Assembly: GCA_020161845.1 (NCBI GenBank)
Contig: JAIUNK010000009.1
Span: 62,001-126,000 of the forward strand
DNA from: Actinomycetota bacterium
GTDB taxonomy: Bacteria; Actinomycetota; Actinomycetes; Actinomycetales; Dermatophilaceae
Reading direction: 5' to 3'
Length of the DNA stretch: 64,000 bases
This document shows positions 15,611-30,547 of this stretch, one piece after another; within the stretch, counting starts at the first letter, position 1, and each line of letters opens with the position of its first letter. The notes beneath the pieces are model-generated. The model worked only from the letters and a program-made list of their open reading frames with translations, did not search any database and had not been told where the DNA came from. Both the position numbers and the translations under genes were made by a program.

Positions 15611-16492
15611 GTGGACGTCCCGACCCCACGCCCCGACGCCGCGGCGTCGCCGGATGCGCTGCCCGCGCCGGCGTCGCCCGGGGAGCAGCGCGACCCGGCG
15701 GCACCCACCGACCAGGTGCGGCGGCTGATCGGGATCGGTGTCGGCCCCGGCGACCCGGAGCTGGTGACCCTCAAGGCGGTCCGCGCGCTGGCCGGCGCCG
15801 ACGCGATCCTCGTCCCGGAGACCGAGACCTCCAGCACGCGCGGCCCGGGCAGCGCCGACGGTCGGGGCGGCGCCGGCCGGGCCGAGCTGATCGTGCTGGG
15901 CTGCTGCCCTACGGCGGCGCCGGCGATTCGCCGGGTGCCGTTCAGCATGGCCGACCGCAGCGGGGTCACCGACCGACGTCGCGAGGCCTGGGACGCCTCG
16001 GCGGCGGCGGCGCTCACGGCGTACGACGAGGGCGCCCGCACCGTCGCCTTCGCCACCGTCGGAGACCCGAGCGTCTACTCGACGTTCTCCTATCTCGCGG
16101 CCACCGTGTCCGAGCGGCTGCCCGACGTCGTCGTCGAGGTGATCCCGGGGATCACCGCCATGCAGGCACTGGCCGCGGCCAGCCGGATCCCGCTGGTGGA
16201 GGGCACCGAGGTGCTGGCGCTGGTCCCGGTGACCGCCGGCCTCGAGACGCTGGAGCGGGCCATGGCCGCCGCGGACACCGTCGTGGCGTACAAGGGCGGT
16301 CGCCGGATGCCCGAGGTGGTGAGCCGGCTGCGCGCCGCGGACCGCGAGGCGACCACCGTGATCGGCACAGACGTCTCGCTGCCGCACCAGCGCCTGGTCG
16401 GCCTCGCCGAGCTGGGCGAGGCCGAGCGGGCGCCGTACTTCTGCACCGTGCTGTCCGCGCCGGCCCGGGCCACGATCGGCGGACGTCTGTGA
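15611..16492 (+). CDS. cobI: Precorrin-2 / cobalt-factor II C20-methyltransferase
   Basis: SAM-dependent methyltransferase adding the C20 methyl to the corrin precursor. The 293-residue protein begins with a Pro/Ala-rich stretch of about 35 residues not usual in the family, then the tetrapyrrole methylase fold: IGIGVGPGDPELVTLKAV, FATVGDPSVYSTFSYL, VIPGITAMQALAAAS, and VAYKGGRRMPEV. The GTG start at 15611 is preceded by GAGGAGG inside the riboswitch expression platform. A shorter start within the low-complexity N-terminus cannot be excluded. First gene of the riboswitch operon; its stop overlaps cobM by 4 nt. Confidence 0.94.
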   Translation: MDVPTPRPDAAASPDALPAPASPGEQRDPAAPTDQVRRLIGIGVGPGDPELVTLKAVRALAGADAILVPETETSSTRGPGSADGRGGAGRAELIVLGCCPTAAPAIRRVPFSMADRSGVTDRRREAWDASAAAALTAYDEGARTVAFATVGDPSVYSTFSYLAATVSERLPDVVVEVIPGITAMQALAAASRIPLVEGTEVLALVPVTAGLETLERAMAAADTVVAYKGGRRMPEVVSRLRAADREATTVIGTDVSLPHQRLVGLAELGEAERAPYFCTVLSAPARATIGGRL

Positions 16493-17358
16493 ACGCCTTA
16501 CGGCCCAAGCCGAATTCGCGGGGCAGGGTGGTTTTTGTGGGGGCCGGTCCGGGAGCCGCCGACCTCGTCACGGTGCGCGGGGCGCGCGTCATCGCGGAGG
16601 CCGACATCGTCATCTGGGCCTCCAGCCTGGTGCACCCCGGGATCGTGGCCGGGGCGCGGCCGGACGCGCTGGTCATCGACTCCGCCAGCGCCTCGTTGGA
16701 GGACCTGGAGCCGGTGCTGGTGCGGGCCCGCGACGAGGGCCTGCTGGTGGCGCGGGTGCACACCGGCGACCCGTCGATCTACGGGGCCACCGCGGAGCAG
16801 CGCGACCAGTGCGACCGGCTGGGGCTGGCGTATGACACCGTTCCCGGCATCTCCGCCTACTCCGCGACCGCCGCCCGCTGCGACGTCGAGATCACGGTGC
16901 CGGAGGTGAGCCAGAGCTTCGTCCTGACCCGCCTGGAGGGGGGCCGGACCCCGATGCCGGACCGCGAGACGGTGGCCGGTTTCGCCGCGCACGGGGCGAC
17001 GATGGCGATCTACCTCTCGGCCGCGCGGCATCGGCAACTCCAGCAAGCACTCCTCGATGGGGGCTATCCGCCCGGTACACCGTGCCTGGTGGGCTACCGG
17101 GTGACCTGGGAGGACGAGCTGATCCTGCGCTGCGAACTGGCCGAGCTGTCGGCGACGATGCGCGAGCGCAAGCTGTGGAAGCACACCATCGTCATGGTCG
17201 GTCCGGCCCTGGCGCCGGGCCCGATCGCGGCGCGGAGCCACCTCTACCATCCGGGGTTCCGGCACGAATTTCGCCAGGCCGAGCCCGGTGCCCAGGCACA
17301 GTTGCGCAGCCAGGGTGCGGTCGGCATCGCTAGCAACACAGGGACGGACGAGCCGTGA
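16489..17358 (+). CDS. cobM: Precorrin-4 / cobalt-precorrin-4 C11-methyltransferase
   Basis: SAM-dependent C11 methylation of the corrin ring. The 289-residue protein has the tetrapyrrole methylase signature VFVGAGPGAADLVTVRGA, then WASSLVHPGI, ARVHTGDPSIYGATAEQ, VPGISAYSATAAR and the EVSQSFVLTRLEGGRTPMP block, which is specific for CobM/CbiF. GTG at 16489 overlaps the cobI stop (GTGA), and its own stop overlaps cbiE the same way, so translation is coupled along the operon. The last 30 residues (after the HPGF segment) form a variable tail. Confidence 0.95.
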   Translation: MNALRPKPNSRGRVVFVGAGPGAADLVTVRGARVIAEADIVIWASSLVHPGIVAGARPDALVIDSASASLEDLEPVLVRARDEGLLVARVHTGDPSIYGATAEQRDQCDRLGLAYDTVPGISAYSATAARCDVEITVPEVSQSFVLTRLEGGRTPMPDRETVAGFAAHGATMAIYLSAARHRQLQQALLDGGYPPGTPCLVGYRVTWEDELILRCELAELSATMRERKLWKHTIVMVGPALAPGPIAARSHLYHPGFRHEFRQAEPGAQAQLRSQGAVGIASNTGTDEP

Positions 17359-18536
17359 TCGACGTCTACGGTCACCTCGGCGCCCCGGGGCCCGAGCTTC
17401 GCCAGGCGGTGGCCGGCGCCGGCCGGGTCGTCGCCGGAGCCAGGGCGCTCGACGCGCTCGACGTACCCCCGCAGCGTCGGATCGTGCTGGGCGGGGTGAG
17501 CCCGGCGATCGCGGCAGTGACGGCGTACCAGTCCGCCGGCGAACCCGACGGCCCCGTGGTCGTCCTGGCCAGTGGCGACCCGCTGTGTTATGGGGTGGTG
17601 CGCCGGTTCCGCGCCGGGGGACTGTGGTGCCGGGTGCACCCCGGGATCTCCTCGCTCGCGGCCGCCTTTGCCGCGGTTGGGCTGCCCTGGGACGACGCGC
17701 AGCTGGTCAGCGCACACGGGCACGGGATGGCGCCGACCTGGGCGGCCTGCCGGGCGCTGCCCAAGGTCGCGGTGCTCACCGCGCCGGGGCACGGGATCCG
17801 CGAGATCGCGGCGGGCCTGGCGGATCTGGAGCGCTGGTACGTCGTGGCCGAGCGACTCGGCGAGGCCGACGAGCGGGTTCGGGTGCTGGACGGGTCAGCC
17901 GCCCGCGGCGCCACCGACGTCGCCGAGCCGAACGTCGTGCTCGTGCTGGCCGCGCCCCCGGACTCGCCGGCGGCGCTGGGGGTGCTCGGGCCGTACGTCG
18001 GGGGGCCGCGGCCCGCGGCCAACGACCCGGCACCTCGGCCGGGACTGAGGGACACTGCCACGCCGCATGCCGCCGCGATCGCGCTGGTGTTCGGCCGCAC
18101 CGCGCCGCGCCTCGGCGACACGATCTGGTGCGCCGGAGAGATCGTCGAGGACGTCGTGGCCTGGGGCGCCCGCACCGGCGCGGCGGTCGTCGACCTGAAC
18201 GGCCTGCCCGCCGACGGCCTGGCGGAGACCGACGGTTTCGAGCAGCCGGCGATCCCGGCGTACCTTCCGGACCCCGACCTGGTGCTGCTCGACGATCCCT
18301 CCTGGCTGCCGGCGCTGGCCCGCCGGACAGCAGGCCCGCGCCTGGTGGTCCTGCTGTCCGGCGACGACGCGGCCCACGGCGCCGCTGCTGCCGTGGATCT
18401 GGCCGGATTCCCCCCGAGCGCTCGGGTCGACGTGGCGCACCTGGCGCTCACCGATGCCGACGGCGCGACCCGCTCGACCTACCTGACCACCATCGAGACT
18501 CTGCCCACCACCGAGATGCCGCGGGAGGCACCGTGA
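17355..18536 (+). CDS. cbiE: CbiE (C5-methyltransferase) with a degenerate CbiT-like C-terminal domain
   Basis: The first 200 residues are CbiE, the C5-methyltransferase half of CobL: MIDVYGHLGAPGP, VVLASGDPLCYGVVRRF, HPGISSLAAAFAAVGLPWDD, and the HGHGMA block. Residues about 235-393 are an extra domain. It aligns by eye with CbiT, the C15-methyltransferase/decarboxylase half of CobL: APRLGDTIWCAGEI stands where CbiT has a PGRVLWDIGTGAGS-type SAM site, and PDLVLLDDPSWLPAL stands where CbiT has PDAVFLGGGAS. The glycine-rich SAM loop is gone, so this half is probably inactive. An intact cbiT lies at 26574-27170. The dead-domain call is an inference; structure prediction would test it. Confidence 0.88.
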   Translation: MIDVYGHLGAPGPELRQAVAGAGRVVAGARALDALDVPPQRRIVLGGVSPAIAAVTAYQSAGEPDGPVVVLASGDPLCYGVVRRFRAGGLWCRVHPGISSLAAAFAAVGLPWDDAQLVSAHGHGMAPTWAACRALPKVAVLTAPGHGIREIAAGLADLERWYVVAERLGEADERVRVLDGSAARGATDVAEPNVVLVLAAPPDSPAALGVLGPYVGGPRPAANDPAPRPGLRDTATPHAAAIALVFGRTAPRLGDTIWCAGEIVEDVVAWGARTGAAVVDLNGLPADGLAETDGFEQPAIPAYLPDPDLVLLDDPSWLPALARRTAGPRLVVLLSGDDAAHGAAAAVDLAGFPPSARVDVAHLALTDADGATRSTYLTTIETLPTTEMPREAP

Positions 18537-20389
18537 CCACCCGGGAGACGCCGGAGACGCCGGAGACGCTGGAGACGCCCGAAACGCCCGAGACCCCCGC
18601 GACCACGGAGCGGATCGGGCAGGTGGTCGGGTCCAGCCCGGCGGCCCGGCGGCGCGCGGCGGAACTCGACGCGGCGCTGGGCGGTACGACGATCTACCCC
18701 GGCCCCTCGACCGAGCTGCTGCCCCGGGCCTGGGCCGAGTGCGATCTCATCGTCAGCCATCTCGCCCTCGGGGCGACGACCCGGATCATCGCGCCGCTGC
18801 TCGCCGACAAGAAGACCGACCCCGGGGTCGTGGTGGTGGACGAGGCCGGCCGCTTCGCCGTGCCGTTGGTGGGCGGGCATGCCGGCGGCGCCAACGAGCT
18901 GGCCCGCCGGATCGCCGCAGCGACCGGCGCGACGGCCGTGCTCACCACCGCCACGGACGGTCTCGGCATCGCGGCCCTGGACACCCTCGGCTGGCCCTAC
19001 CGCGGCGACGTCGCGGGGACCACCCGGGCGGTGCTGGACGGCCGGCGCGTCGAGCTGGTGCGCGAATACCGCTGTCCGCTACCGCCGCTGCCGGACAACG
19101 TGACGCAGGCGCCCGACGGGGGAGAGACGGTGTGGACCCGCGGCGACGACGACAACCGGGTCGCGGCGCGCATCGTGGTGACCGACCGGGCCGGGGCGCT
19201 GGTCCTGGCCGAGGCCGACGTGCCCACCGTGGTGCTGCACCCGCCGACGCTGGTCGTCGGGATGGGCTGCAACTCCGGCACGGACGTGGAGCACCTGCAC
19301 GCGCTGCTGCGCGAGGCCCTGGCCGGAGCCGGGCTCGCCGCGGAGTCCGTCGCCGCGCTGACCACCATCGACGCCAAGGCCGGCGAGATCGGGCTGCTGC
19401 AGCTCGCCGCGCGGCTGCGCCTGCACCTGCGGCCGTTCCTGGCGGAGACCCTCGCCGAGGTGGCGGTGCCGACCCCGAGCACCGTCGTCGCCGGTCACGT
19501 CGGCAGCCCCAGCGTGGCCGAGGCCTCGGTGCTCGCGCGCGGCGCCGTACTGCTCGTGCCCAAGCGCAAGTCCACCGACGCGACCTGCGCGATCGGACGG
19601 CTGCCCGCGCGGGGGCGGCTCAGCGTGGTGGGGCTCGGTCCGGGGGCGCGGGACCTGCTCACGCCGCGGGCGGTGCGGGCTATCCAGGAGGCTCGGTACG
19701 TCGTGGGCTACGGACCCTACGTGCGGCAGATCCGCGATCTGGCCCGGCCCGGGGCGCAGGTGGAGGCCAGCACGATGGGTTCGGAGCAGGACCGGATCGC
19801 CAAGGCCGTGGCCCGGGCCCGCAGCGGCGATGCGGTGGCCCTCGTCTGCGGGGGCGACCCGGCGATCTACGCGATGGCCAGCCCCGTGCTGGAATACGGC
19901 ACGGACGGCATCGACGTCGTCGTCGTGCCCGGGATCACCGCGAGCCTGGCCGCCTCGGCGATCCTGGGTGCCCCGCTGGGTCACGACCACGCGACGATCT
20001 CGCTGTCCGACCTGCACACGACGTGGCCGGCGATCGAGCGGCGCCTGGTCGCGGCGGCCGAGGGCGACCTGGTCACCGTGCTCTACAACCCGCGCAGCCG
20101 CACCCGCACCTGGCAGCTGCCGCGGGCCCTGGAGATCTTCGCCGCGCATCGCGGGCCGCGGACCCCGGTCGCCGTGGTGACCCAGGCGGAACGGCGCCAG
20201 GAGGGCACCGTCCTGGCCGAGCTGGCCGACGTCGATCCGGCGGTCGTCGACATGAATTCGCTGGTCATCATCGGGTCGAGCAGCACCTCGTACCTCCCCT
20301 GCGAGGGTCGCCCGCCGTACCTCGTGACCCCCCGCGACTACACCTGGATGGGCGTCGAGCAGGACGCCTGCGCCCCCTCGGGATCCTGA
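18533..20389 (+). CDS. cobJ: Fusion: CbiG (cobalt-precorrin-5A hydrolase) - CobJ/CbiH (C17-methyltransferase)
   Basis: Two consecutive ring-contraction enzymes in one 618-residue chain. After an N-terminal Glu-Thr-Pro repeat (ETPETPETL, residues 4-20) comes CbiG: SHLALGATTRIIAPLL, VVVVDEAGRFAVPLVGGHAG with the conserved GGH, and the C-terminal CbiG domain with VVGMGCNSGT and TIDAKAGEIGL. CobJ starts near residue 362 with LSVVGLGPGARDLLTP, followed by VVGYGPYV, CGGDPAIYAMASP, VPGITASLAASAILGAPLGHD, and VTVLYNPRSRTR. The GTG at 18533 overlaps cbiE by 4 nt; upstream frame extension lies in cobM/cbiE and is rejected. CbiG indicates the cobalt-early route. Such CbiG-CbiH fusions are known in actinobacteria. 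Confidence 0.95.
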   Translation: MTTRETPETPETLETPETPETPATTERIGQVVGSSPAARRRAAELDAALGGTTIYPGPSTELLPRAWAECDLIVSHLALGATTRIIAPLLADKKTDPGVVVVDEAGRFAVPLVGGHAGGANELARRIAAATGATAVLTTATDGLGIAALDTLGWPYRGDVAGTTRAVLDGRRVELVREYRCPLPPLPDNVTQAPDGGETVWTRGDDDNRVAARIVVTDRAGALVLAEADVPTVVLHPPTLVVGMGCNSGTDVEHLHALLREALAGAGLAAESVAALTTIDAKAGEIGLLQLAARLRLHLRPFLAETLAEVAVPTPSTVVAGHVGSPSVAEASVLARGAVLLVPKRKSTDATCAIGRLPARGRLSVVGLGPGARDLLTPRAVRAIQEARYVVGYGPYVRQIRDLARPGAQVEASTMGSEQDRIAKAVARARSGDAVALVCGGDPAIYAMASPVLEYGTDGIDVVVVPGITASLAASAILGAPLGHDHATISLSDLHTTWPAIERRLVAAAEGDLVTVLYNPRSRTRTWQLPRALEIFAAHRGPRTPVAVVTQAERRQEGTVLAELADVDPAVVDMNSLVIIGSSSTSYLPCEGRPPYLVTPRDYTWMGVEQDACAPSGS

Positions 20390-20398
20390 GGAGAAGCG

Positions 20399-21685
20399 AT
20401 GACAACTCTTGCAAGCGCCGGGGTGCCGGCGTGCGTGATCGCGGCGCACGGGACGCGCGACCCCCACGGCGTGGCGGTCGGCCGGGCGCTGATCGAGCGG
20501 GTCCGCGGACGGTTGCCGGGCGTGCCGGTGCACGAGGGGTACGTCGAGCTCGTCGAGCCACCCATCGCGGCGGCGGTCCGGGCGGCCTTCGCCGGCGGGG
20601 CCGAGCGGGCGGTCGTCGTCCCGCTGATGCTCGGCACCGGCACGCATGTCCGCGACGACATCCCCGAGGCCATCGCCGCGGGCCTGGCCGACGAGCCTGC
20701 GTCCGGCCCCGGGGGGATCGCCGCGTCGCTGGACCGGGTCCGCTACGCCCGGCCGCTGGGCGCCGACCCGCGCCTGCTGGACGCGGTGATGAACCGGGCC
20801 ACCGCCGCCGCGGACGATTGGGCCGAACCGGGGGAGCGGCCGCTGCGCGATCTCGGCGTGGTCTTCCTCGGTCGGGGCGCCAAGGTGGCCGAGGCCAACG
20901 CCGATCACGCCCGGCTCGCCCGGCTGTTCGCCGAACGGACCGGCGCGTCCGTCGAGGCCGCGTTCATCCAGGTGACCCGGCCGTCGCTGCCCGAGGCGCT
21001 GGGGAGGCTGGCCATGCTCGGGCACCGCCGGATCGTGGTCGCCCCGAACTTCCTGCTGCCGGGGCTGCTGCGGACCTGGATGCGCGAGCAGGTGCAGGCG
21101 TGGGCGGCCACCCATCCCGACGTACCGGTGCGCATCGCCGAGGTCATCGGCGACTGCGACGACCTCGCCGACGTCGTCGCCGACCGCTACCGGGAGGCCG
21201 CGGGCGAACTGGCGCCGACGGCCGGCGAGGCGGGGGCGCCGGTGTATCTGGCCGGGCTGCGGCTGGCAGGCCGGGAGGTCCTCGTGGTCGGCGCTGGTCA
21301 CGTAGCCGATCGTCGGGTGCCCCGGCTGCTGGAGGCGGGGGCCCGGGTGCGGCTCATCTCGCCGACGCTGAGCGTGCGGCTGCGCGGGTTGGTCCGCTCG
21401 GGCGCCGAGATCGCCTGGGAGCAGCGGCCGTACGCCGACGGGGATGTGGGTTCGGCGTGGTATGTGCTGGCCGCGACCAACGACCCCGAGGTCAATGCCC
21501 GGGTGGCCGGCGCGGCCGAGGCGGCGCGGGTGTTCTGTGTGCGGGCGGACGCCGCGCGGCTGGGCACGGCGTGGACCCCGGCGGTCGAGCGGGCCGCGGG
21601 GCTGACCGTCGCGGTGGTCGGCAACCGGGACCCGCGCCGGTCGGTGCGGGTCCGCGATGCGCTGCTGGCGGCCCTGCACGATTGA
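20399..21685 (+). CDS. cbiX: Fusion: CbiX sirohydrochlorin cobaltochelatase - precorrin-2 dehydrogenase
   Basis: The 428-residue protein joins two early steps. Residues 1-265 hold two CbiX/SirB-type repeats: IAAHGTRDPHG with the metal-binding His, and VPLMLGTGTHVRDDI, then a second repeat VVFLGRGAKVAEANAD and VVAPNFLLPGLLRTWM. Residues about 280-428 are a SirC/Met8-type NAD dehydrogenase (REVLVVGAGHVADRRVPRLLEAGA, ATNDPEVNARV) that oxidises precorrin-2 to sirohydrochlorin. The start ATG at 20401 region has TGAGGAGAAG 5-9 nt upstream. Together they make cobalt-sirohydrochlorin, again the cobalt-early pathway. It is the last methylase-operon gene. The stop lies in a triple tandem repeat. Confidence 0.94.
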   Translation: MTTLASAGVPACVIAAHGTRDPHGVAVGRALIERVRGRLPGVPVHEGYVELVEPPIAAAVRAAFAGGAERAVVVPLMLGTGTHVRDDIPEAIAAGLADEPASGPGGIAASLDRVRYARPLGADPRLLDAVMNRATAAADDWAEPGERPLRDLGVVFLGRGAKVAEANADHARLARLFAERTGASVEAAFIQVTRPSLPEALGRLAMLGHRRIVVAPNFLLPGLLRTWMREQVQAWAATHPDVPVRIAEVIGDCDDLADVVADRYREAAGELAPTAGEAGAPVYLAGLRLAGREVLVVGAGHVADRRVPRLLEAGARVRLISPTLSVRLRGLVRSGAEIAWEQRPYADGDVGSAWYVLAATNDPEVNARVAGAAEAARVFCVRADAARLGTAWTPAVERAAGLTVAVVGNRDPRRSVRVRDALLAALHD

Positions 21686-21724
21686 GGGGCCCTGCACGAC
21701 TGAGGGGCCCTGCGCGACTGAGCG
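21671..21724. repeat. 18-bp unit in three tandem copies across the cbiX stop
   Basis: Units at 21671-21688, 21689-21706 and 21707-21724 share the pattern GCCCTGCACGAYTGAGGG with one to three changes. Each unit encodes Ala-Leu-His-Asp (Ala-Leu-Arg-Asp in the third) followed by the stop TGA, so the last four codons and stop of cbiX have been copied twice downstream. A frame-preserving unit of 18 bp means a point change in the first TGA would only add six residues. Confidence 0.9.
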
Positions 21725-21797
21725 GCCCGGGGCCCCGAGCGCGCGGATCGGGAGTAGCGTCGGCTCCCACCGGCACCGACTCGACGAGGAGTCTGCG

Positions 21798-22850
21798 ATG
21801 TGCATGACCTCTGAGGATGCTCACTCGGCCGCGAGGACCGCGCCCCGCGCGGCGTACGGCTCGGCCGTGGATCCCATCCATCTGGACCCCGTCGACGAGG
21901 TCGTCGTCACCACCCTGGTCGACAACACCTTCGACGGCCTGCTGGCTCCCGGCCCCGGCATCGAACGCGGCACTTTCGGGGCCGGGCAGGCCCCGGCGCC
22001 GCACTTCGAGGACGGCACGGCGCTGCTGGGCCTGCGGGCGGAGCACGGGTTCTCGGCCCTGGTCACGGTGCGCTCGCGGGAGTCGACGTCCACGATCGTG
22101 TTCGACACCGCGATGACCCCGGACTCGATGGTGGTCAATGCACAGCGGCTGGGGGTGGACTTCGGTGAGGTCGCGGCCGTCGTTCTCAGTCACGGGCACT
22201 TCGACCACTGTGGCGGGCTGACCGGGTTGGCCGCGGAGCGCGGGCCACGACGTACCCCTCTGGTGGTGCACCCATATGCCTGGACCCGTCGCCGGTTCGT
22301 CATGCCGGGCAGCGAATTGGTCTTTCCCACGCTGAGCCGCAAGGCCCTGGAGTCCGAGGGATTCGAACTCCTGGAGCGGCGAGTGCCTTCTCTGCTGCTG
22401 GACGGTCGCCTGCTGGTCACCGGAGAGGTGGATCGGACCACGGAGTTCGAGCGCGGCATGCCGCCGGTGCACCAGGCCTGGGACGGCACCGAGTGGCGCC
22501 ATGATGCCGCGGTCATCGACGACCAGGCCGTCGTGATCCACGTCCGCGGCCGTGGATTGGTGGTGCTCACCGGGTGCGGGCACGCCGGCGTCGTCAACAT
22601 CGTCCGGCATGCCATGCGCCTGACCGGGGTGGATACTCTGTGCGCGCTGATCGGGGGCTTCCACCTGAACGGGCCGGCCTTCGAACCGATCATCCCGGCC
22701 ACGCTGGACGCACTCGAGGCGATGGGCCCGGACCTGCTCGTGCCGGGGCACTGCACGGGTTGGCGCGCGCAGCACGCGCTCGCGGCGCGGCTCCCGCAGG
22801 CCTGGGTGGCCGGCTCCTCCGGCACCCGCTATACCCTCACTGCCGCCTGA
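21798..22850 (+). CDS. MBL-fold hydrolase, dihydropterin-phosphate synthase-like
   Basis: A 350-residue metallo-beta-lactamase fold protein. The metal-binding motif is LSHGHFDHCGG (about residues 131-141), with further ligands likely in TGCGHAGVVN (about 259-268) and VPGHCTGWRAQHAL near the end; GGFHL also fits. This motif set is characteristic of the group that includes the archaeal 7,8-dihydropterin-6-methyl-4-aminobenzene-phosphate synthase. Bacterial members have unknown roles. GAGGAG lies 6 nt before the ATG at 21798 and a TAGCGT box near 21754 is a likely -10. It sits alone between cbiX and cobH; a role in corrinoid or pterin chemistry is only suggested by location. Confidence 0.82.
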   Translation: MCMTSEDAHSAARTAPRAAYGSAVDPIHLDPVDEVVVTTLVDNTFDGLLAPGPGIERGTFGAGQAPAPHFEDGTALLGLRAEHGFSALVTVRSRESTSTIVFDTAMTPDSMVVNAQRLGVDFGEVAAVVLSHGHFDHCGGLTGLAAERGPRRTPLVVHPYAWTRRRFVMPGSELVFPTLSRKALESEGFELLERRVPSLLLDGRLLVTGEVDRTTEFERGMPPVHQAWDGTEWRHDAAVIDDQAVVIHVRGRGLVVLTGCGHAGVVNIVRHAMRLTGVDTLCALIGGFHLNGPAFEPIIPATLDALEAMGPDLLVPGHCTGWRAQHALAARLPQAWVAGSSGTRYTLTAA

Positions 22851-25726: not shown

Positions 25727-26592
25727 GCGACGGCGGACCGGTGCTGCTCGCGGCGGAGGAGATCACCGCGACCTACCTCGGCGCGCCGGCTCCGGTCCTG
25801 CGGGGTGCCAGCCTGGCGGTGCTCGCGGGGCGTCGTACCGCCGTCCTCGGCGCCAACGGTTCCGGCAAGAGCACGTTGCTGCGCTGTCTGTCCGGGGCGC
25901 ATCGCCCGGCCGCCGGAACGATCCGACGCGACGGCGTCGCGCTGCGGCACGATCGCGCCGGCCTGCGGGCGCACCGGGCCGGCGTCCAGCTCGTCCTGCA
26001 GGACCCCGACGACCAGCTGTTTTCGGCGGACGTCGCCCAGGACGTGTCGTTCGGGCCGCTGCATCTGGGGCTGGGAGCGCAGGAGGTACGTCGGCGCGTG
26101 GCCGAGACTCTGGACCTCGTGGGCGCGACGCACCTGGCCGACCGGCCGACCCACCAGCTGTCCTATGGGGAACGCAAACGAGTCGCGCTGGCGGGCGCGC
26201 TCGCGATGCGCCCCGCGGTCCTGCTGCTCGACGAGCCGACCGCCGGGCTGGATCCGGCGGGCCTGGAGACGCTGCTGACGGTGCTGGCGCGGGTGCAGAC
26301 CTGGGGGACCACCGTGCTGCTCGCCACGCACGACGTGGCGCTGGCGTTGACCTGGGCCGACGAGGCGGCGGTCGTGCTGGGCGGCCGCGTCCATGCCGGG
26401 CCGGTCAGCAGCGTCCTCGACGACGAGCAACTGCTCGCCGCCGCCGGACTGCGCCGTCCATGGCCGCTGGAACTGGCCCGTCGCCTCGGCCTGGCGGGCG
26501 ACCCGCGCGGGGTCGAGGACGTGCTCGCCCTCCTGGCGCAGACCGGGACGCCGTGTCAGCCGGTGGCGCCGTGTCAGCCGGTGGCGCCGTGA
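25723..26592 (+). CDS. cbiO: Cobalt ECF transporter ATPase CbiO
   Basis: ATPase of the cobalt importer. The 289-residue protein has Walker A GANGSGKST (about 44-52), Q-loop in LVLQDPDDQLFS, signature LSYGERKRVALAGAL, Walker B AVLLLDEPTAGLDP and switch His in LATHDVAL. The QDPDDQ stretch is typical of ECF ATPases. The last 13 residues (PCQPVAPCQPVAP) come from an 18-bp duplication at the gene end and are not part of the fold. The stop lies 19 bp inside the convergent cbiT gene, so the two genes overlap tail to tail. Confidence 0.95.
   Translation: MSDGGPVLLAAEEITATYLGAPAPVLRGASLAVLAGRRTAVLGANGSGKSTLLRCLSGAHRPAAGTIRRDGVALRHDRAGLRAHRAGVQLVLQDPDDQLFSADVAQDVSFGPLHLGLGAQEVRRRVAETLDLVGATHLADRPTHQLSYGERKRVALAGALAMRPAVLLLDEPTAGLDPAGLETLLTVLARVQTWGTTVLLATHDVALALTWADEAAVVLGGRVHAGPVSSVLDDEQLLAAAGLRRPWPLELARRLGLAGDPRGVEDVLALLAQTGTPCQPVAPCQPVAP
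26551..26592. repeat. 18-bp tandem duplication at the cbiO stop
   Basis: CCGTGTCAGCCGGTGGCG is present twice without change (26551-26568, 26569-26586), followed by CCGTGA with the stop. It adds a second PCQPVA to the CbiO tail. The second copy also lies in the 3' end of convergent cbiT, where it encodes part of that protein's last residues. Confidence 0.9.
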
Positions 26593-27170
26593 GCGCGGTA
26601 GGACCATTGCACGACCGGGCGCAACGGTTTCCAGCCGAACAGGCCGCCGAGCGGTTCGGCGGCTTCGACACCGAGCCGCAGCAGCGACCCGCCGCGGGCC
26701 CGGAAGGCGGCGATCAGCACCTGTTCGGTCTCGATCGTCACGGCGTGGGCGACCAGTCGGCCGCCGGGCGCCAGGGCGGCCAGGCAGGACTCGAGAACGG
26801 CCGCGCTGGCGCCGCCGCCGAGGAAGACCGCATCCGGAGCGGGCAGGGTGGCGATGGCCTCGGCGGCGTAACCCTCGATGACATGGACCAGCCCGGGCGC
26901 GAGGCGCTCGGCGTTGCCGCGGGCCCGCGCGGCGCGGACGGGATCGCGCTCGACCCCGTAGGCCGCGGCGCCGCCGGCGCGGCACCATTCGACGGCGATC
27001 GAGCCGGCCCCGGTCCCGATGTCCCACAGCACCCGGCCGGGGCCGGGGCGCAGCTCGGCGAGGGCACAGGCACGCAGCGGCCGCTTGGTGATCAGGCCGT
27101 CGTGGTCGAAGGCGTCGTCGGGCAGTCCGGGGCACGAACCGAGGGCGGCGATGTCGGTGGGGGAGAGCAC
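26574..27170 (-). CDS. cbiT: CbiT, precorrin-6Y / cobalt-precorrin C15-methyltransferase (decarboxylating)
   Basis: Methylates C15 and decarboxylates the ring-C acetate; the second half of CobL in organisms where the two are fused. The 198-residue protein has GLITKRPLRACALAEL at the start, the SAM-binding loop VLWDIGTGAGSIAVEW (about 47-62), an acidic ribose contact in YGVERDPVRA, and PDAVFLGGGASAAVLE, which is typical of CbiT. The C-terminal HAVTIETEQVL and PVVQW blocks also fit. GTG at 27170 follows a TAGCCT box by 6 nt, so it is probably leaderless. It overlaps cbiO by 19 bp and diverges from cobO. It presumably supplies the activity that the CbiE fusion has lost. Confidence 0.93.
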   Translation of the reverse strand: MLSPTDIAALGSCPGLPDDAFDHDGLITKRPLRACALAELRPGPGRVLWDIGTGAGSIAVEWCRAGGAAAYGVERDPVRAARARGNAERLAPGLVHVIEGYAAEAIATLPAPDAVFLGGGASAAVLESCLAALAPGGRLVAHAVTIETEQVLIAAFRARGGSLLRLGVEAAEPLGGLFGWKPLRPVVQWSYRAHGATG

Positions 27171-27182: not shown

Positions 27183-27236
27183 CCCGGCCGCAGGATCGCG
27201 ACCCGGTCCGCCGGGACAGCGGTAGGCGGCGACTCG

Positions 27237-27299
27237 ACGGCGCCGCGGCTCGACGGGACGGCACCGCGGCTCGACGGGACGGCGCCGCGGCCCGGGGAC
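27237..27299. repeat. 21-bp triple repeat at the cobO 5' end
   Basis: Three tandem 21-bp units of the type ACGGCGCCGCGGCTCGACGG (27237-27257, 27258-27278, 27279-27299, the last diverging) would encode TAPRLDG repeats if read in the cobO frame. No ATG or GTG precedes them in that frame before 27102, so whether they are translated is open. Confidence 0.8.
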
Positions 27300-27866: not shown

Positions 27867-30547
27867 GCGTGCCGCCGACCACGGCGTACGGGCAGCCGAC
27901 GACGGCGTACGGGCAGCCGACGACGGCGTACGGGCAGCCGACGACGGCGTACGGGCAGCCGACGACGGCGTACGGGCTGCCGCGCGTCGTCATCGCCGCC
28001 CCCGCCTCCGGTCACGGCAAGACGACGCTGACGATCGGGCTGATGGCGGCGCTGCGGCGGCGCGGGCTCGCGGTGGCGCCGGCCAAGGTCGGCCCGGACT
28101 ACATCGACCCCGGCTACCACCTGCTCGCGGCGGGTCGGCCGGGCCGCAACCTCGATCCGTTCCTGGTCGGCGAGGACCGCATCGTGCCGCTGCTGCTGCA
28201 CGGCGCGCTGACCCCGGCGCCCGCCGAGGTCGCGGTGATCGAGGGCGTGATGGGGCTGTTCGACGGGCGCCTGGGCACCGATTCCTTCGCCTCCACCGCG
28301 CACGTCGCCCGCCTCACGGCGAGCCCGGTCGTGGTGTGCGTGGACGTCCGGCACCAATCCGCCACGGTGGGTGCCGTGGTGCACGGGTTGGCGACGTATG
28401 ACGACAGGATCCGCGTGGCGGGGGTGGTCCTGAACCAGGTCGGGTCGACGCGGCACGAGGCCGAGGCGCGGCGCGCGATCGAGCGCACCGGGATCCCCGT
28501 GGTCGGGGTCCTGCCCCGCAACTCCGCGATCGAGGCGCCGTCGCGGCACCTGGGGTTGGTCCCGGCGGCCGAGCGGCCGGAGTCCCAGGAGGCGCTCGAC
28601 GTCCTGGCCGACCTGGTCGCCGAGCGCGTCGACGTCGATGCGGTGCTCGCGCTGGCCCGCACCGCGGAACCGATCGCGGCGGTCCCCTGGGACCCGGCGA
28701 CGCAGGTGCGGCGCCCTGACGGCGGTGACGGCGGCGGTGGCGCTGCCCGCCCTGTTGTGGCCGTGGCCGGGGGGCGGGCGTTCACGTTCCGGTACGCCGA
28801 GACCGCCGAACTCCTGCACGCGGCCGGTTGTGAGGTCGTGGTCTTCGACCCGACCAGCGAGGCCGTCCTGCCGACCGGGACCGCCGGGCTTTATCTCGGC
28901 GGCGGTTTCCCGCAGGTCCACGCGACCGAGTTGGCGGCGAACGCCCAACTGCGCGAAGGCATCCGGGCCGCCGTGGCCGCGGGCCTGCCGACCGTCGCGG
29001 AATGCGCCGGGCTGCTCTATCTGTGCCGCAGCGTCGACGGCGCGCCGATGGCCGGCGCTCTGCCGCTGACGGCCGCCATGACGCCGCGCCTGGCGATGGG
29101 TTACCGGGAGGCCACGGTGCCCGCCGACACGCTGCTGGCGCGCGTCGGGGAGAGGGTCCGGGGCCACGAGTTCCACCGCACCCGAACGACGCCCACCGAT
29201 GACACGGGCCCGCCGGCCTGGTGCCTGGCGGGGGAGCCGGACGGCCTCTCGCTCGACCCGGCGGGCACGGGTCGGCCGACGCTGCACGCCGCGTATCTGC
29301 ATGTGCACTGGGCGGGGTACCCCGAGGCGGCGCAACGGTTCGCCGACGCCGTGCATGCGTACGCCGGGGGTACCCGCGCCGCCGGACCCGCTGTGTCCCC
29401 GGACCTGGCGCAGCACGAGGACCTGACGCAGCGCGAAGACCTGGCGCATCACGGAGACCTGGCGCAGCACGAAGACCTGACGCAGCACGAAGACCTGGCG
29501 CATCACGGGGACCAGGACATCGGGCCCGGGCTGGTCGATCTGGCGGTCAACGTGCGGCCGGCGCGGACCCCGGACTTCCTGGTCCGGGCCGTCGTCGAGC
29601 ACGCCGACTGGTCGGCCTATCCGGACGCCGCGCCGCTGCGGGCGGCGTTGGCCGAGCACCATGGCGTGCCGGCGGACCACGTCCTGCCCACCGCCGGGGG
29701 CGCCGAGGCGTTCACGCTGATCGCGCACGCCCTGCACCCGACGTACCCCGTTGTCGTCCACCCCCAGTTCACCGAGCCCGAGGCGGCGCTGCGGGCGGCG
29801 GGCCACGCCGTACGGCGCCACCTGCTCACCGCGGCCGGGGACTTCCGGTTCGAGGCGGCTGTGTTCGCGGCCGAGCACGCCGCGGCCGACCTTGTCGTGG
29901 TGGGCAATCCGACCAACCCCACCTCGGTCTTGCACCCCCGCGCCGAGCTGCTGCGGTTGGTCCGGCCGGGCCGGGTCCTGGTGGTCGACGAGGCGTTCAT
30001 GGACCTGGTCCCCGGCGAGCCGGAGACGATCCTGGGTCCCGGGCGCGCCGGCCCGCCGGACGGCGTCATCGTGCTGCGGTCCCTCACCAAGACGTGGGGC
30101 ATCGCCGGGCTGCGGCTGGGCTATGCGGTGGGTTCCCCGGACCTCATCGCCCGGCTCGCCGCCCGACAGCCGCCCTGGGCGGTGTCCACCCCGGCCATCG
30201 CGGCGGGACTGGCGGCGCTGACCCCGGCCGCGCAGGACTGGGCCCGAGCGCAGACCGCCCGGATCGCCCCGGCCCGCGAGGACCTGCTGCGCCGACTGAG
30301 CGAACTGGGGTTGCGCTGTGTCGGGCCGGCTCGCGCGCCGTACCTGCTCCTCGACACCAGCCCCCTCGGCGCCGGGTCGGTGCGTCCGGACCTGGCCGCC
30401 CGCGGCTTCGCCGTGCGGCGCGGCGAGACGTTCCCCGGGCTCGGCCCCACCTGGATTCGCCTCGCCGTCCGCGACCCCGACACCCACGCCGCCCTCGCCG
30501 CCGCGCTCGCGCAGCTGCGCCCTCCGACGACCAAGGACCGCCCATGA
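27860..30547 (+). CDS. cobB: Fusion: cobyrinate a,c-diamide synthase CobB/CbiA - threonine-phosphate decarboxylase-like CobC
   Basis: An 895-residue fusion. Residues 1-40 are five PTTAYGQ repeats. CobB follows: APASGHGKTTLTIGLM P-loop, AKVGPDYIDPGYHLLAAGR, EGVMGLFDGR, then the amidotransferase half with LGGGFPQVHATEL, nucleophile Cys in VAECAGLLYLC and a His near HVHWAGYP. A second repeat (DLAQHEDLTQ type, about 515-550) links to a class I/II aminotransferase-fold domain: LAVNVRPARTPDFL, PTAGGAEAFTLIAHAL, VGNPTNPTSVLHPR, VVDEAFMDLVPGE, and PLP-lysine region RSLTKTWGIAGLRLGY. CobC makes the aminopropanol phosphate used by CbiB. The ATG at 27860 (or the next GTG) overlaps cobO; the stop overlaps cobA. 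Confidence 0.95.
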   Translation: MVSVPPTTAYGQPTTAYGQPTTAYGQPTTAYGQPTTAYGLPRVVIAAPASGHGKTTLTIGLMAALRRRGLAVAPAKVGPDYIDPGYHLLAAGRPGRNLDPFLVGEDRIVPLLLHGALTPAPAEVAVIEGVMGLFDGRLGTDSFASTAHVARLTASPVVVCVDVRHQSATVGAVVHGLATYDDRIRVAGVVLNQVGSTRHEAEARRAIERTGIPVVGVLPRNSAIEAPSRHLGLVPAAERPESQEALDVLADLVAERVDVDAVLALARTAEPIAAVPWDPATQVRRPDGGDGGGGAARPVVAVAGGRAFTFRYAETAELLHAAGCEVVVFDPTSEAVLPTGTAGLYLGGGFPQVHATELAANAQLREGIRAAVAAGLPTVAECAGLLYLCRSVDGAPMAGALPLTAAMTPRLAMGYREATVPADTLLARVGERVRGHEFHRTRTTPTDDTGPPAWCLAGEPDGLSLDPAGTGRPTLHAAYLHVHWAGYPEAAQRFADAVHAYAGGTRAAGPAVSPDLAQHEDLTQREDLAHHGDLAQHEDLTQHEDLAHHGDQDIGPGLVDLAVNVRPARTPDFLVRAVVEHADWSAYPDAAPLRAALAEHHGVPADHVLPTAGGAEAFTLIAHALHPTYPVVVHPQFTEPEAALRAAGHAVRRHLLTAAGDFRFEAAVFAAEHAAADLVVVGNPTNPTSVLHPRAELLRLVRPGRVLVVDEAFMDLVPGEPETILGPGRAGPPDGVIVLRSLTKTWGIAGLRLGYAVGSPDLIARLAARQPPWAVSTPAIAAGLAALTPAAQDWARAQTARIAPAREDLLRRLSELGLRCVGPARAPYLLLDTSPLGAGSVRPDLAARGFAVRRGETFPGLGPTWIRLAVRDPDTHAALAAALAQLRPPTTKDRP
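27875..27979. repeat. Five 21-bp tandem repeats in the CobB N-terminus
   Basis: Five nearly identical copies of a 21-bp unit (CCGACGACGGCGTACGGGCA plus G) encode PTTAYGQ four times and PTTAYGL once. Near identity at the DNA level, with only a few changes in the first and last copies, suggests recent expansion. The P-loop domain begins directly after it. Confidence 0.95.
29402..29509. repeat. Six 18-bp repeats in the CobB-CobC linker
   Basis: Six 18-bp units encode DLAQHE, DLTQRE, DLAHHG, DLAQHE, DLTQHE, DLAHHG. They are arranged as two copies of a 54-bp block that differ in only a few bases, so a three-unit block was duplicated. The His/Asp/Gln-rich segment is a flexible tether between the two enzymes. 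Confidence 0.95.

Follow-up and report, generated by a model that had tools for sequence, protein, structure and literature searches.

Why does a protein of the B12 pathway carry the outline of a second enzyme without that enzyme's catalytic motifs, when an intact version of the second enzyme is encoded elsewhere in the same gene cluster? The question is raised by a 393-residue open reading frame (ORF) confirmed at 17355-18536 on the forward strand of the stretch analyzed here (the window: 64,000 nucleotides of a Dermatophilaceae actinomycete, assembly GCA_020161845.1, contig JAIUNK010000009.1, positions 62,001 to 126,000, or G000:C56:62001-126000, with G000 denoting the window's own genome). 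CobL, the precorrin-6B C5,15-methyltransferase, is a fusion of CbiE and CbiT, and the original prediction took the window protein to be a once-fused CobL whose CbiT half had died and been replaced by a complete CbiT encoded on the opposite strand, or else had been kept as a structural or regulatory domain. Our data favor an extended form of this account, to which we assign a probability of about 85%: the protein would be a former CobL with a dead CbiT half, CbiT chemistry would be supplied in trans, the halves would have been lost reciprocally from two proteins, and the relic would be weakly kept.

The C-terminal domain of the CbiE protein

The N-terminal part of the protein belongs to the CbiE family, as TIGR02467 matches residues 15-195 with 116.5 bits (cut-off, 92.9). 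The C-terminal domain of about 150 residues contains the strings on which a CbiT plan had been proposed by eye (PRLGDTIW at 251-258, PDLVLLDD at 307-314, and LVVLLSGD within 329-337); their aligned counterparts in intact CbiT domains of CobL are strands beta1, beta4, and beta5. Around motif I, the S-adenosylmethionine (SAM) site, the window protein reads PRLGDTIW-CAGEIVED-VVAWGARTGAAVVDL, whereas its CobL counterpart reads PRLGDLVW-DVGAGSGS-VAVECARLGAAVVAV, which bears out the proposed loss of the glycine-rich SAM loop. According to the alignment, beta2 has also lost its acidic end and beta4 the GGGG that follows it, and the HRDSMITK segment and the beta3 region are missing as well.

These losses are common to nine proteins that share the relic plan. 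Of 70 fused A-type CobLs, 69 have GxGxG at motif I (the exception, L033, reads VGAGSAS), as against none of the nine relics, in which the lone regular-expression match, in L111, lies by eye upstream of the motif; an HRDSMITK-like segment (HR..MIT) is likewise present in 67 of the 70 and absent from all nine. Homologues with an active SAM motif in this domain, which the original prediction had listed as potential counter-evidence, are these 69 outgroup CobLs and represent the ancestral state. TIGR02469 (CbiT) is absent among the 12 families that match the 393-residue protein at E ≤ 1, leaving its CbiT half unrecognized, and no Pfam or NCBIfam match is listed at E ≤ 1 for residues 200-393. The protein shares with CobL a CbiE half over the cut-off and common descent (see below); since it lacks a TIGR02469 match, motif I, and the HRDSMITK segment, it descends from CobL but, judged by its sequence, does not qualify as a working CobL.

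Does the likeness to CbiT exceed chance? A profile built from the nine C-terminal domains (E values for a search of 5,000; threshold, E < 1e-3) detected all 22 intact A-type CobL CbiT domains chosen as targets (21 of the 70 loci above plus L114 of G050), with 20-47 bits and E values from 1e-12 to 1.3e-4. At the same threshold it detected none of 43 B-type, separate, and C-type CbiTs (best, 14.1 bits), none of 12,425 unrelated background ORFs (best, 11.4 bits), and none of 22 reversed or 1,100 shuffled targets (best, 9.6 bits), while 50 column-shuffled relic profiles reached 8.6 bits at most. Sub-profiles of the window's genus (best, 30.0 bits) and of the genus g13 together with L137 (best, 22.7 bits) both preferred A-type CbiT; L113 alone tied between A-type (23.5 bits) and one B-type domain (23.4 bits), both above its background of 11.3. 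Searched in reverse, a hidden Markov model (HMM) of the intact domain gave E values of 7.5e-6 for L106, 5.1e-5 for L113, 0.002 for the window relic, and 0.056 for L110, with E > 1 for the other five; single-relic matches being weak, the clear signal comes from the relic profile only. Against PDB sequences that profile found nothing significant: NorQ came first (E 0.03) and the CobL C-terminal domain 3njr third (E 0.79). Taken together, the searches identify the domain, at the level of sequence, as a decayed CbiT, with a likeness beyond chance.

The AlphaFold2 (AF2) check suggested in the original prediction gave a divided answer. With 39 CbiE or CobL homologues in the alignment, the whole protein was modeled at a mean predicted local distance difference test (pLDDT) score of 84.2, and its relic part (ten-residue block means of 65-89 over 231-380) took on CbiT topology: a first helix before b1 and a second between b1 and b2, then a pair of three-residue strands, then b4 and b5, each with a helix after it, and at the end two strands of ten residues. 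The last two match the long b6-b7/b8 hairpin described as the tetramer-forming element of CbiT (PMC3672029), with 3-5 of 10 residues identical per strand, which is not above the rest of the relic. A single-sequence model of the relic alone reached a pLDDT of 39.9, too poor for a fold search, so that the predicted fold is not independent of homology. In the PDB fold comparison of the full model, the rows listed aligned to residues 1-211 only, that is, to the CbiE domain, and a Foldseek list of 50 rows named tetrapyrrole-methylase structures; no CbiT entry was among these rows, and this part of the check is uninformative on the relic.

Relatives, second CobL copies, and the separate cbiT

Relatives were drawn from 58 related genomes and from a TIGR02467 census of 163 family genomes (87 over the cut-off); census matches were fetched only in part, so the relic may be commoner than our counts suggest. 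The named loci (L020-L099) are the best 80 of at least 492 loci from a contig search with alignment A1. Scanning contigs for the window protein by itself yielded no relative. A plasmid tblastn search added nothing, since not one of its 55 records covered 80% of the query.

Comparing CbiE architecture among relatives, as had been proposed, separates three states. Nine genomes, which represent four genera, carry the relic in frame: the window protein, L103 (G001), L109 (G003), and L106 (G002) in the window's genus; L110 (G015), L111 (G123), and L112 (G124) in g13; L137 in G079; and L113, which is shorter, in G033. All ten Propionibacteriaceae-type loci among these best 80 (L020-L029) encode CbiE without CbiT, and five of them (Micropruina L023, L024, and L026, Cutibacterium porci L027, and P6A17 L029) have an in-frame fusion of CbiE with CbiG-CobJ, in which a short linker takes the place of the window's relic. 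The other 70 (L030-L099; Streptomyces, Micromonospora, Rubrobacter, Pseudonocardiaceae, etc.) all have a CobL with its CbiT half. We placed 74 CbiE domains, including those of 21 of these 70 outgroup loci, in one tree. Nested within its intact A-type CobLs is a single clade of 19 (100/99), which takes in every sampled A-type protein that bears the relic or lacks CbiT. Within this clade, g13 and G079 group on one side (97/88), and Propionibacterium, Brooklawnia, and Cutibacterium are the sister group of the window's genus (99/91). Proteins with the relic and proteins without it are interspersed, with at least five changes among the three states, while for the presence or absence of a catalytic CbiT in the chain the whole tree needs at least two changes, one of them in the hisF-linked CobL described below. 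One CbiT death, long persistence, and then several deletions would be the simplest reading. At the level of sequence, profile, alignment, and tree show both the motif loss, in all nine relics, and the descent from CobL, as the original prediction supposed, and they suggest a single event.

The separate cbiT is intact by family match and motifs, in line with the earlier statement that it is complete. It exceeds the TIGR02469 cut-off (86.5 versus 78.3 bits), alone among 11 matches to this family in G000, and has intact motifs (DIGTGAG, 27003-27023; HDGLITK, 27084-27104). Its best B-type CobL match in BLAST scored 201 bits over 184 residues, versus 101 bits over 105 residues for the best A-type match. 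The gene is convergent to cbiO and adjoins what we take to be cobO, a layout found again in Cutibacterium porci (L027); in P6A17 (L029) cbiT is also convergent to cbiO, and in a CbiT tree of 65 rows the window gene groups with L027 and L029 (88/82), apart from A-type CbiT (stem 1.41). In these respects the separate cbiT resembles a second, B-type CobL lineage. Descent from an A-type CobL is disfavored by the BLAST scores, though an approximately unbiased (AU) test does not reject a grouping of the window cbiT with A-type CbiT (p 0.293), and the proposed replacement of the dead half, here by a gene that resembles another lineage, is supported with this reservation. Trees joining all separate cbiTs with A-type CbiT (AU p 0.033) or uniting all separate cbiTs as one clade (AU p 0.034) were marginally rejected. 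A tblastn search for CbiE debris before separate cbiTs gave no convincing match in the tested stretches of L110, L111, L112, and the window (best E 0.017).

Stages of the hand-over are visible in relatives. G079 (L140) has an intact B-type CobL beside cbiD and hisF, 9 kb from its relic A-type CobL, which is followed by cbiG-cobJ. In the g13 genomes G015 and G124 the arrangement of the shared genes is that of G079, except that cbiD and the gene for precorrin-6A reductase lie about 6 kb closer together, and the position of the B-type CobL is occupied by a lone CbiT 66-67% identical to the G079 CbiT. The cbiD stop falls nine bases ahead of the cbiT ATG in G124 (L112); G015 has an extra gene between the two, by eye like a membrane acyltransferase, and G123, in which no cbiD was found, has hisF and a lone cbiT together. 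Synteny with G079 thus shows that in g13 one CobL kept its CbiE and the other its CbiT.

Members of the window's genus have further CobLs. Copy C, a CobL linked to hisF, occurs in all four (L143:9188-10846 on G000:C32 in the window's genome, and L144, L145, and L146). The gene hisF also neighbors intact CobL in G079 and G104, and among ten further CobL loci it was present in the fetched stretch of G104 only, which makes the link a feature of part of the family. Copy C of G000 has a CbiE over the cut-off (139 bits), and motif I of its CbiT is broken in all four genomes (LWEVGGSG, LWEVGGPG, LWEIGGDA, and LWEIGGPG); these are the only exceptions to D-x-G-x-G-x-G among 34 fused CobLs outside L030-L099 (30 of 34). 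A D-G-x-LTK segment was not found in any of the four copy C CbiTs, a pattern that also misses A-type L114 and motif-I-intact L123. Genomes G001, G002, and G003 carry an intact B-type CobL as well (L102, L105, and L108), while in G000, which has the separate cbiT, only two CbiE matches exceed the TIGR02467 cut-off. Elsewhere, at G139:C1:109446-110020, a CbiT match is split across two frames, possibly a frameshifted CobL.

Constraint on the relic and rival explanations

The ratio of nonsynonymous to synonymous differences per site (pN/pS) points to weak constraint on the relic in at least one lineage. For the closest pair, G001-G003, in which purifying selection is significant, it was 0.49 (0.32-0.75) in the relic versus 0.31 in CbiE; the relic value was reached by 0 of 300 and 2 of 480 neutral simulations in two sets, with medians of 0.81-1.27. 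Other pairs within the genus gave 0.72 (window-G003), 0.81 (window-G001), and 0.83 (G003-G002), with 0.77 (window-G002) and 0.88 (G001-G002) for two pairs that were not simulated; pairs within g13 gave 0.68 (G015-G123), 0.74 (G015-G124), and 0.89 (G123-G124). Values as low arose for divergent pairs in 0-5 of 100 simulations at an equilibrium GC of 0.73 and in 2-41 of 100 at GC 0.5. Leaving G001-G003 aside, the remaining five pairs within the genus are 42-45% identical in the relic and 66-73% in CbiE, and the G003 relic has a GC content of 0.50 at second codon positions versus 0.81 at first and 0.83 at third positions.

Combining these observations, we propose that the CbiE half still methylates C5 of cobalt-precorrin-7, as family membership and conservation suggest, and that SAM and substrate are no longer bound by the CbiT half, in the simplest case after a single loss in the ancestor of an actinobacterial CobL clade. 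We infer that the relic has no CbiT activity; methylation at C15 and decarboxylation at C12 would fall to another protein, which in G000 may be the product of the separate cbiT and in G001, G002, and G003 the intact B-type CobL elsewhere in the genome. The presence of a second CobL would have made each half redundant, so that each protein was then free to lose one of them. Weak purifying selection keeps the dead domain in at least one lineage, most likely because it still folds and its CbiT hairpin contributes to CbiE quaternary structure: a plausible structural role, in which the chain would work as a CbiE and its dead half as a scaffold inherited from the oligomer of CobL.

Several observations weigh against this account. 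The synteny that suggests reciprocal loss comes from g13 and not from the window's cbiT, which sits at the Cutibacterium porci cbiT position and which the AU test allows among A-type CbiTs. Divergent pairs are near neutral in some settings (at GC 0.5, 36 of 100 simulations for G003-G002 and 41 of 100 for G123-G124 were as low as observed), and the CbiT-like model rests on an alignment that includes intact CobLs. Finally, the complete deletion of the domain in relatives shows that it is dispensable there.

The closest competitor, to which we give somewhat less than an even chance, is a functionless relic in the course of wearing away and being lost, its frame open because stops are rare at high GC and its end placed just before cbiG. 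Such a relic would explain why the domain is missing from all ten Propionibacteriaceae-type loci, evolves much faster than CbiE, is near neutral for several pairs in some simulations, and is shortened in G033; less easily explained are its in-frame presence across four genera, a closest-pair pN/pS below all 300 simulations of one set, the second-position GC of the G003 relic, and the dead CbiT that the second CobL of the same genus retains in all four genomes. More broadly, dead CbiT could be a recurrent and selected end state of CobL in this actinobacterial family. With a second CobL present, reciprocal wear would leave CbiT in one protein and, in the other, CbiE with an empty scaffold that keeps it within the CobL oligomer and docks the active CbiT; this state would have been reached independently in the acquired cluster of this locus and in the hisF-linked CobL of the same genus. 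We regard this generalization as doubtful. A narrower proposal is unlikely, namely that the dead domain serves to dock the separate CbiT, the two forming a mixed tetramer of CbiT type and thereby a CobL-like complex in which precorrin is handed from one site to the other. The predicted hairpin that corresponds to the tetramerization element (PMC3672029) survives in the window relic, CobL has been described as an octamer (PMC8123684), and one pair is under purifying selection, but G001, G002, and G003 keep the relic although no separate CbiT appears in them besides an intact CobL and copy C; moreover, the hairpin is conserved no better than its surroundings, and the G033 relic is shortened at the hairpin end.

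That the separate cbiT is the split-off second half of the same CobL, with the relic a leftover duplicate, is very improbable: the non-rejecting AU test leaves room for it, whereas the twofold BLAST difference in favor of B-type CobL and the marginal rejection of all separate cbiTs with A-type CbiT speak for another lineage. Hardly credible is a domain unrelated to CbiT, resembling it by chance or composition. It would account for the lack of a curated family match, the insignificant PDB-sequence search, and the E > 1 obtained for five of nine single relics with the intact-domain HMM; it does not account for the detection of 22 of 22 intact domains with all controls negative, nor for sub-profiles of the genus and of g13 with L137 that rank A-type CbiT first and an L113 tie above background.

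Viewed as a former CobL with a weakly kept dead half, the window protein shares domain order, CbiE half, and descent with CobL, its CbiE being nested in intact actinobacterial CobLs, and differs in a CbiT half without the SAM loop, the HRDSMITK segment, and the b3 region. The cbiEGH genes have been named in propionibacteria (PMC5282855). The CbiE of that type is a sister clade with a similar gene order and, in Cutibacterium porci and P6A17, convergent cbiO and cbiT, but it has no CbiT remnant and is fused to CbiG-CobJ in half of the loci, while the window keeps the remnant as a tail of CbiE, between CbiE and CbiG-CobJ. Compared with CbiT itself (MT0146, MJ0391, and the CobL C-terminal domain 3njr), the predicted model has the strand order and long terminal hairpin described in PMC3672029, whereas the relic lacks SAM and precorrin motifs and is shorter in the middle. 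Pseudoenzyme domains as described in PMC10211241 offer a further parallel: the relic is a homologue without the conserved catalytic motifs and is attached to an enzyme that should itself be active, although here it seems to have arisen from reciprocal wear of two fused enzymes. No description of a decayed CbiT half of CobL was found among the titles and abstract openings listed in searches of open PMC papers, which is no proof of absence. The proteins compared here may represent stages in the coming apart of a fused two-step enzyme (intact fusion, a dead half with a second fusion, reciprocal loss of halves, and full deletion with re-fusion to a new partner), raising the question of whether the CbiT half of CobL is needed for shape as well as chemistry. 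Such proteins may also be annotated as CobL or plain CbiE while CbiT activity sits elsewhere.

The B12 gene cluster of the window

Table 1. Features of the CbiE gene and its neighbors, in window coordinates.
Feature	Position	Strand	Evidence or remark
cobM/cbiF	16489..17358	+	TIGR01465, 329 bits; 4-base overlap with CbiE gene start
CbiE domain (cobalt-precorrin-7 C5-methyltransferase), residues 1-200	17355..17954	+	TIGR02467; purifying selection
Linker, residues 201-236	17955..18062	+	Low model confidence, pLDDT <50 at 213-230
Decayed CbiT domain, residues 237-385	18063..18509	+	Relic profile; alignment; AF2 with intact homologues
SAM motif I site, residues 259-266, CAGEIVED versus DVGAGSGS in intact relatives	18129..18152	+	Alignment
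Long b6-b7 hairpin (predicted), residues 357-381	18423..18497	+	AF2 strands 357-366 and 372-381
cbiG-cobJ fusion	18533..20389	+	Family match; 4-base overlap with CbiE gene end
Separate cbiT, intact	26574..27170	-	TIGR02469; motifs; likeness to B-type CobL CbiT

The cluster runs cobQ, cobI, cobM, the CbiE gene, cbiG-cobJ, and a joint gene with cbiX-like and CysG-type N-terminal parts, followed by cbiC (reverse strand), cbiM, cbiQ, cbiO, cbiT (reverse strand), and a cobB-cobC fusion. The GTG start of the CbiE gene overlaps the cobM stop, and a GTGA overlap joins it to cbiG-cobJ at 18533, so that it reads as a coupled operon gene. Although CbiG is encoded in this cluster, a TIGR00312 search did not find cbiD in G000, G001, G003, G123, or G033; it found the gene in four of the nine genomes searched (G002, G015, G124, and G079).

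In the joint gene (20399-21685) the chelatase-like, cbiX-like part falls below curated cut-offs, and the CysG N-terminal domain to which it is joined (TIGR01470) lies over its own. Between cbiX and cbiC, the product of 21657-22850 resembles by eye a metallo-beta-lactamase-fold enzyme. Among 45 repeat rows in the whole window, six short tandem repeats (18544-18603, 21670-21728, 26549-26591, 27236-27291, 27874-27982, and 29402-29513) lie at or near the ends of B12 genes or between the CobB and CobC domains; their periods are multiples of three, and they look as if gene junctions here were prone to in-frame repeat growth.

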